From: Brevinematales bacterium
GTDB taxonomy: Bacteria > Spirochaetota > Brevinematia > Brevinematales > GWF1-51-8
Direction of reading: 5' to 3'
NCBI GenBank assembly: GCA_020059465.1
Contig: JAGVBZ010000001.1
Location: forward strand, 1 to 64,000
DNA: 64,000 nucleotides
Shown: one piece after another, positions 7,365 through 22,705 of the stretch
Position numbering within the stretch: position 1 is the first letter of the stretch
Layout of the letters: every line of letters starts with the position of its first letter
Notes under the pieces: generated by a model
The model's database searches: none
What the model saw: the letters and a program-made list of their open reading frames with translations, nothing else
Told to the model about the DNA's origin: nothing
Made by a program: the position numbers and the translations under genes

Positions 7365-7395
7365 CCTGATTTTTTATTTCGAAAAACCTGATTAA
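7365..7395. repeat. 31-bp repeat after response regulator 1
   Basis: CCTGATTTTT, four variable bases, TCGAAA, then ACCTGATT. The two CCTGAT cores are 22 bases apart. The same arrangement with identical spacing lies at 8107-8137, after the second regulator gene. This copy overlaps the stop codon of the upstream-strand gene and the perfect palindrome TCAGGGAATCCCTGA. Confidence 0.65.
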
Positions 7396-8042
7396 ACTGT
7401 GATTCTTTCCCACATCGCATATTCTATTAATTCACTCAGGCTTTTAATCTCGAACCTTTTCATTATCTGCACAAGCTGTTTCCGCAGATCGTCGACCGGT
7501 ATGTTAAGTTTCTCAGAAATACTGTCAACCGTACACTTATCCGCCAGCATCCGGAGAACAGTCCTCTCCATATCGGAGATCGACTCGGTTTCATGTATGG
7601 AAACAATTCTGTCATTGTCAATCACTTCGTCTTCCATCATTTTTGATATTTCCCCGCCGAGATAAATCCTGCCTTCCTTCGCGCTGTGAATTGCCTCGAT
7701 GAGACAATCGATGGAAGAATCCTTCGGGACAAATCCCGAGGCGCCGGCCGCCAAAGCCTTCTTAATAATCTGCTTGTCGGCATACATGGAAAACGCGACA
7801 ATGTGTATCTGCGGAAAATCCTTCGTGATTTCTCTTGACGCTTCGATACCGTTCATCTTCGGCATCGAAATATCCATCACTATGACATCGGGATTGAGCA
7901 CACCGGCTTCCTGATAGGTTTCCTTTCCATCCGCCGCTTCGCCGACTATTTCAATATCGCTCTCGTTTTTCAGGAATTCGATAATGGATTTTCGCACCAT
8001 TCTATGGTCGTCGGCAATGATTACCCGGATTTTTTCTGCCAT
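7392..8042 (-). CDS. NarL-type response regulator with degenerate DNA-binding helix
   Basis: 216 residues from the ATG at 8042, which follows GAGGA; the longer frame to 8084 lacks a site. The receiver domain (residues 1-125) has the acidic pair in IIADDH, phosphoacceptor Asp57 in VIVMDISMP, and the conserved Lys in FVPKD. The C-terminal region aligns with the LuxR-type helix-turn-helix of the neighbouring regulator. However, the recognition helix reads VDDLRKQLVQIMKRF instead of VKTVETHRQQIMTKL, so normal DNA binding is doubtful. It is the same length as its neighbour and is clearly paralogous. It lies third in the kinase gene cluster, 95 bases after the other regulator. Confidence 0.88.
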   Translation of the reverse strand: MAEKIRVIIADDHRMVRKSIIEFLKNESDIEIVGEAADGKETYQEAGVLNPDVIVMDISMPKMNGIEASREITKDFPQIHIVAFSMYADKQIIKKALAAGASGFVPKDSSIDCLIEAIHSAKEGRIYLGGEISKMMEDEVIDNDRIVSIHETESISDMERTVLRMLADKCTVDSISEKLNIPVDDLRKQLVQIMKRFEIKSLSELIEYAMWERITV

Positions 8043-8106
8043 AGATTCCTCATATTCTTTATGCATTATTATACATAAAAACAATCGGGAATAACATCAG
8101 TAAAAA

Positions 8107-8137: not shown

Positions 8138-8788
8138 CTATTCGAGCGAAGTCAATCCTTCACGGATGGCGAGTTTGGTAAGTTCCGCGATACTATGCGT
8201 ACCGAGTTTGGTCATGATCTGCTGACGGTGGGTTTCAACAGTCTTTACGCTGAGAAAGAGCTGCGCCGCAATTTCCTTGGTCGTTTTTCCCTCGACCAGT
8301 AACTGTAAAACCTCCCGTTCGCGCGGAGAAAGAATCTGATAAAGAGTCTGTTCCTTCTTTCTTAACTGTTCTACATAATCCCCGACCACCACGTCGGTAA
8401 TCGATTTACTCAGGAAGGTCTTTCCCGACATAACTGTTCTGACAGCCTCGATCAGTTCTTCGGCGGCACAGTCCTTCAATAGAAACCCCTTTGCGCCGCT
8501 CTCCAGCATATTGGCTATAAAGCGCTTATCATGATGCATCGATAATGCTATGATATATGTACCGGGATGTTCGCCGGTTATCATGCGCGTCGCTTCCATA
8601 CCGTTTAAGTCCGGCATTGAAATATCCATGATGATCAGGTTCGGAGAATGTTTTTTTACCAGTTCGATAGCCTCGTAGCCGTTTCCAGCCTCTCCGATCA
8701 CCTCGATATCCGACTCGTTCTCCAGAAGCGACCTGATGCCTTTTCTGACAATCGAATGATCATCCGCGAGCGCGATTTTTATTTTCAT
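8138..8788 (-). CDS. NarL/FixJ-family response regulator
   Basis: 216 residues. The receiver has ALADDH, phosphoacceptor Asp55 in LIIMDISMP and Lys in FLLKD. The C-terminal LuxR-type helix-turn-helix is intact: LSPREREVLQLLVEGKTTKE, then LFLSVKTVETHRQQIMTKLG. Its start lies 29 bases inside the end of the histidine kinase gene, so it is the obvious partner of that kinase. It should act as a cytoplasmic transcription activator controlled by phosphorylation; targets are unknown. Confidence 0.95.
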   Translation of the reverse strand: MKIKIALADDHSIVRKGIRSLLENESDIEVIGEAGNGYEAIELVKKHSPNLIIMDISMPDLNGMEATRMITGEHPGTYIIALSMHHDKRFIANMLESGAKGFLLKDCAAEELIEAVRTVMSGKTFLSKSITDVVVGDYVEQLRKKEQTLYQILSPREREVLQLLVEGKTTKEIAAQLFLSVKTVETHRQQIMTKLGTHSIAELTKLAIREGLTSLE

Positions 8789-18579: not shown

Positions 18580-18588
18580 GTACTGCGG

Positions 18589-18711
18589 TACTGCGTACCC
18601 TAACCCCGATATGAATCGGATAGGTAGTATACATTACCAGCCCGTGTTGAAGGCGTGAGTAAAATCAGACGCCGCTCAGCGGCCTGCGTGTACTGCCTAC
18701 CCTAACCCCGA
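18589..18711. repeat. Direct repeats and family I copy B
   Basis: TACTGCGTACCCTAACCCCGA at 18589-18609 recurs with one mismatch at 18691-18711. The 50-bp family I element (18601-18650) starts inside the first copy and shares both ends with bases 19-68. A short hairpin GCCGCTCAGCGGC lies between. The gap 18580-18970 contains no intact gene. Confidence 0.65.
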
Positions 18712-18776: not shown

Positions 18777-18806
18777 AGGGCCGTCGCAATGACGGCCCTT
18801 TTTTTA
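18777..18806 (+). terminator. Intrinsic terminator
   Basis: AGGGCCGTC, loop GCAAT, GACGGCCCT, then a run of seven T. It ends the transcript of the barrel gene at 17848-18579. The stem could also act from the other strand but lacks a T run there. Confidence 0.85.
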
Positions 18807-18812
18807 TCTCAC

Positions 18813-18878
18813 TTACAGTTTCTCGCCAGTGATTTCCGCGTAGTCCTTCAGCAGGTTCTACGCGCGGGCGGGATGCTG
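18813..18878 (-). pseudogene. Remnant of a second dnaJ 3' end
   Basis: Read on the minus strand, the 22 codons give Q-H-P-A-R-A, a TAG stop, [14 protein letters not shown] and a TAA stop. The intact DnaJ nearby ends [19 protein letters not shown]. The protein match is close, but third codon positions differ widely (CTG-CTG-AAG against TTA-TTA-AAA). This is therefore an old, separately evolved dnaJ copy rather than a fresh duplication. The TAG replaces a Lys codon. No further upstream similarity was seen. Confidence 0.75.
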
Positions 18879-18941
18879 GCTCGCTGTTCCCGTTACCATA
18901 CAGCGTCGGTAATCGGCAAATCACCTGCGGGGGATTGTTTA

Positions 18942-18967
18942 TGTCATCCCGAGCCTGTCGAGGGATA
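18942..18967. repeat. Short dispersed repeat GTCATCCCGAGCCTGTCGAGGGA
   Basis: The block CCCGAGCCTGTC then GAGGG lies just before the dnaJ stop codon. A relative split by about 22 bases occurs at 60056-60105. Such motifs are common between genes in many environmental bacteria, as I recall. Confidence 0.4.
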
Positions 18968-18970
18968 CGG

Positions 18971-20071
18971 TTACATCTTATCCCCGATCATCTCAGCATA
19001 GTCTTTTAATAAATTTTTTGCTCTTGCCGGGAGGTTCTGCGGTACGTCGACCACCACCTCGTAGTAGATACTCCCGCGTCTTCCCGTGTCGATATTCGGG
19101 ATTCCTTCGCCGTTTAACTGGATACGGTGCCCCGGCTGAACTCCCGCGGAGATATTGACCTTCTTTTTCCCTTCAAGGGTATCGACTTCCATCGACCCTC
19201 CGAATACCGCACGCGGATAGCTGATCCGCAGTTTTGCGAAAAGGTCGTCGGTATGCCGCTCAAACAGTGTGTTGTTTCGGATATTGAGTTTGACGTAAAG
19301 GTCGCCGCGCGGGCCGCCGTTCTTGCCGACATTACCCTCGCCGGACACCAGAAGCATCTGACCGTCCTGAACCCCTGCCGGAATCCGTACAGTGATCTCG
19401 GAATCTTTCTCGGCCATCCCGGTACCCCGGCAGGTTTTACACGGGTTCGATATGACACGTCCTTCGCCGTGACATGCAGGGCATGGGGTCTGGATAGTGA
19501 AAAAGCCCTGTGTGGTACGCACCGCACCGGCGCCTCCGCATGTCGGACAGACCTTGGAGCCGGTGTTGCCTTGACTCCCGCTTCCGCCGCAGACGTCGCA
19601 TACTTCGTCGCGTTTAAGTTTTATCCTGATCTTCTTCGTCTTGAGTACGTCGTTCAGTTCGAGGTTGATATCCGCGCGGATATCCCGGCCTTTGGTGCGG
19701 CGCGGGCCTGTGTCTGCCTTTCGGGAACGCTTTCCGCCGAAGATCGAGGAGAATATATCATCGAAGTCGAATCCGCCCCCCATCCCGCTGAAAATATCCT
19801 CGAAGCCGCCGCGCCCGAAACCCCCCGCTCCGGGGCCGCCCTGGCTGAACGCGGAATGTCCGTACTGATCGTATAGCTGGCGTTTCTGATTATCCGCGAG
19901 AACCGAGTATGCCTCGGAAGCCTCCTTGAATTTCTCCTCAGCCGCTTTATCACCGGGATTCCTGTCAGGATGGTGCATCATAGCCAGTTTTCGATAGGCT
20001 TTCTTTATATCGTCTACCGATGCGTTCTTCGGAATCCCAAGTATTTCATAATAGTCTTTTTCAGTCGCCAT
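18971..20071 (-). CDS. dnaJ: Chaperone DnaJ
   Basis: 366 residues. The J domain has the HPD motif in [14 protein letters not shown]-rich linker follows (about 75-110). Four zinc-binding repeats are present: [24 protein letters not shown] and CKTCRGTG. A substrate-binding C-terminal domain ends the protein. It stimulates DnaK ATPase and delivers unfolded proteins in the cytoplasm. It is the last gene of a grpE-dnaK-dnaJ cluster, separated from dnaK by 96 bases that include a hairpin. Confidence 0.98.
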
Positions 20072-20167: not shown

Positions 20168-22078
20168 TTATTTTTCGTCGTCGTTAATTACTTCAGCGTC
20201 CACGACCTTTTCCTCGGGTTCGCTGTTCTGATCGGGTTGCCCGCCGCCCTGCGAACCTGCTTGATTTCCCTGTCCGCCGCTCGCACGGTAGATGTCTTGC
20301 GACACCTTGTGCATCAGCTTCTCAAGGTCCTCCATCGACGATTTCATTCGCCCTTCGTCTTCGGAAGCGATCGCTTCCTTCACCGCTTTTACCTTTTCCT
20401 CGGCCGCGGCCTTATCCTCGGGGTTCATCTTATCTCCGTATTCGGTCAACGCCTGCTCGGTCGAGAACACGATTCCGTCTGCGCGGTTCTTCAGTTCGAT
20501 CAGTTCGCGTGCTTTTCGGTCTTCTTCAGCATGCTTCTCCGCGTCTTCCTGCATTTTCTTCACCTCTTCCTCGCTCAATCCGCTCGACGCTTCGATCCGG
20601 ATTTTCTGCTCTTTTCCGGTACCGAGATCCTTCGCGGTCACATGCAGGATACCGTTCGCATCGATATCGAAGGTTACTTCGATCTGGGGTACTCCGCGCA
20701 TAGCGGGAGGAATTCCCTCAAGGTTGAACATACCCAACGTACGGTTATCCGCCGCACGGGGACGTTCTCCCTGCAGGACATGTATCGTCACAACAGTCTG
20801 GTTATTTTCCGCGGTGGAGAATATCTGCGACTTCTTGGTCGGGATAGTCGTATTCCGCGATATCAGCACCGTATTGACTGCTCCGAGTGTCTCAATACCT
20901 AGCGAAAGGGGTGTGACGTCGAGAAGGAGCAAGTCTTTCACATCGCCTGCAATGACACCGGCCTGTATCGCCGCGCCCATCGCAACCACTTCATCGGGGT
21001 TAACACCCTTGGATGGTTCTTTACCGAATATATTCTTAACAAGGTTCTGGACGAGCGGCATACGTGTCTGCCCGCCTACCAGGATTACCTCGTCTATCTG
21101 GCTCTTTTCGATACCCGCGTCCTTTATCACATTCAGGCACGGCTCGATCGAACGTTCCACAATAGGGCGCGCGATATTTTCGAGCTGTGACCGGGTGATC
21201 GTCATCTGAAGATGTTTCGGCCCGGAGGCGTCTACAGTGATATAGGCGAGATTGATCTGCGATTCGAGTTTGGACGAGAGTTCTATTTTGGTCTTCTCGG
21301 CCGCGTCCTTGAGACGCTGGACGGCAATTCCGTCCTTCTGCAGGTCTATCCCGGTATCTTTTTTATATTCCGCAATCATATATTCCATAATAGCATGGTC
21401 GAGGTCGTCGCCGCCGAGATGCGTATCGCCGTTGGTCGCCTTCACCTCGAATACGCCGTCGCCGATTTCCAGAATGGATATATCGAACGTACCGCCGCCG
21501 AAGTCATATACCGCGACGATGCCTTCCTTTTTCTTATCCAAGCCGTACGCAAGCGCAGCAGCGGTCGGTTCGTTGACAATACGTTCTACCGTCAAACCCG
21601 CGATAGTACCCGCGTCCTTTGTCGCCTGACGCTGACTGTCGTTAAAATAGGCGGGAACCGTAATCACCGCGCGGTCTACTTTTTCGCCGAGATAGTCCTC
21701 CGACGCCTGTTTAAGTTTCATCAGGATACGCGCGGATATTTCCTGCGGGCTGAATTCTCCGGCACGGGTCTCGAAACGTACATCTTCATGCGAACCGGAC
21801 TTAATCTTGAACGAGACCAGCTTTTTTTCACGCTCGACTTCGTTTGAACGACGGCCGATGAATCTTTTTGCTGAGTAGACCGTGTTTTCATGATTGGTCA
21901 CCATCTGGTTCTTCGCGGGCTGTCCGACAAGGGATTCCCCTTTTTCGGTAAACGCCACAATCGAGGGAGTGGTACGGGCTCCTTCCTGATTTTCTATAAT
22001 CTTAGGGCTCCCGTTCTCCATAATACACACCACAGAATTTGTTGTCCCCAAATCAATTCCGATTATTTTTCCCGGCAT
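20168..22078 (-). CDS. dnaK: Chaperone DnaK (Hsp70)
   Basis: 636 residues, normal length. It is an ATP-dependent folding chaperone in the cytoplasm. Family signatures: [28 protein letters not shown] and [14 protein letters not shown]. The linker is [18 protein letters not shown], followed by the substrate-binding domain and a Gly/Gln-rich tail ending [10 protein letters not shown]. It lies 24 bases downstream of grpE in the same direction. Confidence 0.98.
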
Positions 22079-22102: not shown

Positions 22103-22705
22103 CTAGTTTTCGTTTATCATTTCGGAAGTCTGCTCTCCCGATGCGGAGGCCTTTTTCTTTCGGCCGACTTTTACTTTACTGTGTTTTATAATTAATTCGC
22201 CCATGGTATATCCTTTCTCGAATTCCTCGAGAACAACCATATCCTCATCGATGTCGTCGCGTTCTTCGAGAAGTACCGCCTCGTGCAGGTTCGGGTCGAA
22301 CTCCTTACCTACCGATTCGATCGGCATCACCTGAAAACGCGAAAACACGGAATGAATTCCGTCTAACACCATTTTTATTCCCTTCGCCATACCCTCGAAA
22401 TCTTTCGTCTGTTCGGTCACTTTCAGACCGCGCTCAAAGTTATCAATAATAGGAAATAAATCCATTACAAGGTCTTTGTTCGCCATTACACGGAATTTAT
22501 CCTTTTCATCGATTATCCGCTTTTTATAATTCTCAAATTCCGCCGCCTTTCTTTGAAATAAATCCTCAAAGTACGAGGCCTTTTCCTTGTATTCGTTCAA
22601 TTCTTTTATTATCTCCTCGTTTTTGCTCTCGGCATGTGAATCGGAATGTTTCCCGGAAGGTTTCATCTCCGATTCGCGGGCTTCATCTTTGTGCTTCTTA
22701 GACAT
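22103..22705 (-). CDS. grpE: Nucleotide exchange factor GrpE
   Basis: 200 residues. A charged, low-complexity N-terminus is followed by a long coiled coil (about 30-85, ELNEYKEKASYFEDLFQRKA). The GrpE beta domain then has MPIESVGKEFDPNLHEAV and VVLEEFEKGYTMGELIIKHSKVKV. It exchanges ADP for ATP on DnaK. A GGAGGAG site precedes the ATG. It is the first gene of the chaperone cluster; hrcA is not adjacent. Confidence 0.97.
   Translation of the reverse strand: MSKKHKDEARESEMKPSGKHSDSHAESKNEEIIKELNEYKEKASYFEDLFQRKAAEFENYKKRIIDEKDKFRVMANKDLVMDLFPIIDNFERGLKVTEQTKDFEGMAKGIKMVLDGIHSVFSRFQVMPIESVGKEFDPNLHEAVLLEERDDIDEDMVVLEEFEKGYTMGELIIKHSKVKVGRKKKASASGEQTSEMINEN

Follow-up and report, generated by a model that had tools for sequence, protein, structure and literature searches.

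In the 64,000-nucleotide stretch of Brevinematales DNA analysed here (hereafter the window), the dnaJ locus very probably consists of a foreign-tailed gene and its displaced native end, arranged around a 158-bp insertion. This insertion, at 18874-19031, is made up of a 61-nt substitute 3' end, in frame with the gene, and a 97-bp spacer. On the minus strand, dnaJ (18971-20071) follows grpE (22103-22705) and dnaK (20168-22078). As judged by comparison with genomes of the same genus, the last 19-20 codons of the working gene appear to be a foreign piece, which would make the gene a hybrid. The original prediction had taken a short dnaJ-like fragment beyond the gene for the remnant of an ancient second dnaJ. 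The direction of descent now appears to be the reverse, the fragment being native and the tail of the working gene foreign. The parts of the locus, all given on the minus strand, are as follows.

18780-18808 (-): terminator-like hairpin and A/T run right after the displaced end (sequence; fold)
18813-18873 (-): putative displaced native dnaJ 3' end, 19 codons and stop, pseudogene
18874-18970 (-): spacer, probably introduced by the insertion or what remains of it, 97 bp, GC 0.57
18943-18964 (-): copy, within the spacer, of a genome-wide 22-bp intergenic repeat
18971-19031 (-): substitute dnaJ 3' end, apparently foreign, residues 348-366 and stop (congener identities; changepoint)
19032-20071 (-): apparently native part of dnaJ, codons 1-347 (PF00226, PF00684, PF01556; third-position identity 0.65 to G002)

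The two ends of dnaJ and their descent

The fragment, a dnaJ 3' end at 18813-18873, lies 97 bp downstream of the intact gene and contains a single internal stop. Its native homology starts at 18873, perhaps a few bases earlier, and ends with the stop codon 18815-18813. Translation of 18800-18890 on the minus strand gives QHPARA[22 protein letters not shown], which resembles the tail of DnaJ, and the intact tail, used as a tblastn query against the 1.5 kb downstream, matched the fragment at E 7e-8; this similarity is not due to chance. The original prediction was thus right that a DnaJ-tail peptide is encoded here on the minus strand. It was also right that synonymous sites differ almost everywhere (37 of 61 nt are identical between fragment and intact tail, with 2 of 19 third positions) and that the fragment is the more GC-rich of the two (0.57 versus 0.38). 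Directly after the displaced end, a 36-nt stretch (18780-18815) has a fold of -9.5 kcal/mol (z -2.5), and a G+C-rich hairpin, seen by eye, also directly follows the dnaJ stop in the congeners G001 and G002; the hairpin at 18780-18808 is probably the original dnaJ terminator.

Such an arrangement is found once in the material covered. Among 58 ORF tails in the window, the only one with a displaced copy is that of dnaJ, and a tail copy within 1.5 kb downstream occurs at 1 of 30 dnaJ loci, namely the window's own (these loci represent 30 of the 61 dnaJ match rows, the window's own included). A further row of this search, in L013, reached E 0.035 over 10 residues on the opposite strand. Elsewhere in the window, the neighbouring minus-strand ORFs 7392-8084 and 8138-8788 have similar N-termini and are likely a tandem paralogue pair.

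Searches for dnaJ covered 60 relatives, and the same-genus genomes compared were G001, G002 and G003. The DnaJ protein of the window is 93% identical to that of G002 and 84% to that of G003, and it matches G001 in two pieces (93% and 89%). In G001 (L041 2860-2941) the gene is split in two and is without most of residues ~178-244, part of the zinc-finger region, which is either a real deletion or an assembly fault. In G002 (L010 2605 onward), dnaK is separated from dnaJ by an AT-richer stretch with an open frame of ~131 residues, unlike in the window and G003.

The two ends relate to these congeners in opposite ways. The fragment is identical to the dnaJ end of G002 at 56 of 61 nt (92%; 91.8% in the alignment, E 6e-20), to that of G001 at 55 of 61 (90%) and to that of G003 at 46 of 61, with third positions at 16/19, 16/19 and 10/19, respectively. 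For the last 61 nt of the intact gene the corresponding values are 40/61 (66%), 40/61 (66%) and 41/61, with third positions at 3/19, 3/19 and 6/19. Against G002, no other window compared falls as low as the final 19 codons of the intact gene, where 3 third positions match, the minimum of the 202 other windows being 7; against G003, other windows are as low as the 6/19 of the intact tail. When third-position identity was followed over the last 240 codons, with 2000 shuffles, a changepoint was located exactly 20 codons before the stop against both near relatives: identity fell from 0.65 to 0.15 against G002 (0 of 2000 shuffles as strong) and from 0.64 to 0.15 against G001 (5 of 2000). Control pairs among G001, G002 and G003 showed no such switch (525, 481 and 1766 of 2000 shuffles). 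Nor did the comparison of the window with the more distant G003 place a changepoint at this position: its best one lay 102 codons from the stop, and 127 of 2000 shuffles were as strong.

These identities and the changepoint argue that the fragment is the native end and the intact gene a hybrid. The site is empty, that is uninterrupted, in all three congeners, and the next gene downstream, on the other strand, is the same in G002 and G003 as in the window. The native part contains the entire J domain, the zinc-finger region and the DnaJ_C domain; since the DnaJ_C match (PF01556) ends at residue 344 and the insert starts beyond it, every recognised domain lies in the native part and the exchange would have touched only the tail beyond. 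The hybrid gene is open over 366 codons, the target gene having been regenerated in frame by the replacement end, and the peptide predicted from the substitute end is nearly the same as the native one and genus-like.

Composition was also considered as independent proof of the foreign origin of the substitute end, which is AT-rich and looks foreign in its codon use; it was set aside as too weak. Codon-use scores as low or lower occur in 10.8% of 15226 19-codon windows over 37 genes of the window and in 6 of 328 such windows of the dnaJ body, and 12 of 979 61-nt windows of the dnaJ body are equally AT-rich. By the standards of this genome, the codon use and GC of the substitute end deviate only mildly and decide nothing, so that the claim of foreign origin is drawn from the congener comparison only.

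Junctions, spacer and search for a donor

Native sequence ends after codon 347 (19032) and picks up again at 18873, and across the two junctions nothing of the native gene is evidently lost or doubled. The two breakpoints nearly coincide, lying no more than ~11 bp apart. Compared by eye, the junctions have in common only the 5-bp TCCCG, in a different reading register; an attL/attR identity block of at least 7 bp is not present there, and the right junction has no clear homology to dnaJ upstream of the fragment.

The spacer matches nothing elsewhere except the 22-bp intergenic repeat, and no RNA fold was marked in it (z -0.6). This repeat, which begins a few bases past the new dnaJ stop, has 12 copies in the genome at no more than 1 mismatch (the control pattern read backwards has 0), and most of the copies examined are located outside long open frames, in the gaps between them. 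The same unit forms an array of about 15 tandem copies at L006 1368-1699 (G000 contig C31), and related copies are found elsewhere in the genus. Repeated units of ~100 bp also lie downstream of dnaJ, with two copies in the window (18588-18609 and 18690-18711) and more in G002 (L039 ~1628-1934).

Searches of the source genome, of 392 phylum genomes and of viral contigs, phages and plasmids turned up no donor for either the substitute end or the spacer. Matches at E <= 0.01 were obtained in 28 of the 392 phylum genomes; the matches listed besides the window itself span just 19-35 bases, often those of the 22-bp repeat, except for one 73% match to G003's own dnaJ end. A pattern search of 13 genomes of the order found only the genus's four dnaJ genes. 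In genome contigs a pattern search gave 3 matches (Spirochaetes bacterium GWF1_49_6, Flagellimonas and Olivibacter). In viral contigs there were 0 matches in one pattern search and 8 in another, none of which reads as a DnaJ tail upstream of the pattern when inspected by eye, and the spacer pattern gave 0. At third positions, the substitute end is more diverged than even the most distant of the compared congeners are from one another. Because its peptide is nevertheless genus-like, the donor would be a relative not yet sampled, or else an element that acquired the tail long ago.

Between the junctions there is neither an integrase nor an element body, only the 97 bp. PF00589, sought in 13 genomes, has two matches in the source genome, XerC and XerD only, and PF07508 and PF00239 have no match there (4 genomes searched for each, G003 not among them).

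Possible origins of the insertion

The best explanation, to which we give an even chance, is an insertion with its own dnaJ 3' end, most likely by an integrative element. The 158-bp insertion would have entered native dnaJ at about codons 347/348, bringing its own in-frame 3' end of 19 codons and a stop. The cell would since make a hybrid DnaJ whose last 19-20 residues are foreign, while the original 3' end and its terminator, shifted ~160 bp downstream, would have lost translation and begun to decay (one stop codon). The most likely agent would be an integrative element whose attachment site was the dnaJ 3' end and which brought a replacement end with it, and a later deletion would have taken away nearly all of it. 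For islands in protein genes, the rule described is that attP carries replacement sequence, by which the target gene stays working, and a 7-bp identity block is described for tyrosine integrases (PMC10111431). The element reading is favoured by breakpoints no more than ~11 bp apart, by the kept frame and by the nearly unchanged peptide; it is weakened by the mere 5 bp shared, by the missing body and integrase, and by a spacer that holds chromosomal repeat DNA.

Within this reading, the integrase step itself falls a little short of an even chance. The broader idea, that these uncultured spirochaetes harbour an undescribed integrative element that attaches at the dnaJ 3' end and whose recoded DnaJ tail is swapped in on integration, is tentative and on balance doubtful. 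Were an element the cause, dnaJ would count among integration targets; a narrow full-text search, judged on titles, found no description of dnaJ in this role. We do not class the locus as an integrative element, and regard it as a scar left by foreign DNA that inserted here and provided the gene with a replacement end, such an element being the most likely agent.

Homology-facilitated illegitimate recombination is a serious competitor, though its probability lies clearly below one half. Linear DNA of a related bacterium, comprising a dnaJ 3' end and what lies downstream, would have recombined through homology at one end while its other end was joined illegitimately, so that the old 3' end was displaced with no mobile element involved. 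A spacer with a genus-type intergenic repeat a few bases past the new stop suits a chromosomal donor equally well or better, the genus-like peptide and the lack of any remaining integrase agree with it, and the homologous switch that it calls for at one end is seen, in frame, 20 codons before the stop. The same mechanism was proposed for displaced 3' ends at Vibrio cholerae effector loci, in a report that also puts such events at orders of magnitude rarer than ordinary homologous recombination (PMC5361080). However, the illegitimate join would need to fall within ~11 bp of the homologous switch, which seems unlikely if the two were independent, and no donor chromosome was found in the 392 phylum genomes.

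An assembly chimera of two related strains might be suspected in a fragmented draft (3.19 Mb in 48 contigs), but is improbable: the sequence on either outer side is native and keeps its synteny with G002 and G003, so that the assembly would have to contain two false joins inside 158 bp, and the fragment carries an inactivating stop, as expected of a real displaced end.

The remnant of a second, divergent dnaJ, either a foreign copy or an old tandem duplicate trimmed to its tail, would account for two ends that are much alike in peptide yet differ at nearly all synonymous sites. It is nevertheless very improbable and was rejected, since the fragment, not the tail of the intact gene, is the native-type end and codons 1-347 of the intact gene are native. 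Of the original prediction, the joining by recombination of two dnaJ ends of different descent holds, whereas the fragment, at 92% and 90% identity to the dnaJ ends of G002 and G001, does not qualify as a second or foreign dnaJ. Nor was it long selected as a distinct gene: with the fragment native and the intact tail foreign, the divergence would reflect the insert's donor, not a long independent life of the fragment. The check proposed there was for tandem dnaJ genes in relatives; the 60 searched have one dnaJ each, with no second full match (the two rows of G001 are pieces of one gene). That the native 3' end was duplicated in tandem on the spot and its upstream copy then changed rapidly, although it gives the same order of parts, is the least probable of all and was discarded on the same congener and changepoint data, as the selected copy would differ from G002 at 21 of 61 sites and the free copy at 5.

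Comparison with known systems

Whichever agent was involved, the phenomenon is of a kind already known. The closest parallel is prophage e14 in the icd gene of Escherichia coli, for which PMC6379469 describes an insertion into the 3' part of a housekeeping gene, a replacement end supplied by the insert, and the original end remaining beyond it as a short pseudogene, there 163 bp of icd. However, e14 is a 15-kb prophage with homologous att ends, whereas the dnaJ site has a 97-bp spacer, no integrase and 5 bp shared. Islander genomic islands, as presented in PMC4383910 and PMC10111431, likewise have a regenerated target and a displaced fragment that mark their two ends, and an empty site in relatives; the dnaJ site differs from them in having no island body, integrase or identity block. 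At type VI effector loci of V. cholerae and in orphan Rhs 3' regions, a new 3' end is placed on a conserved 5' part and the old end is pushed downstream, as is seen here. There, however, a novel effector-immunity module displaces the old one (as outlined in PMC5361080), whereas the new end of dnaJ encodes nearly the same chaperone peptide. Beside these systems, the dnaJ locus is a clear small example of how what looks like an 'extra gene fragment' can turn out to be its neighbour's native end, and the intact gene the hybrid.
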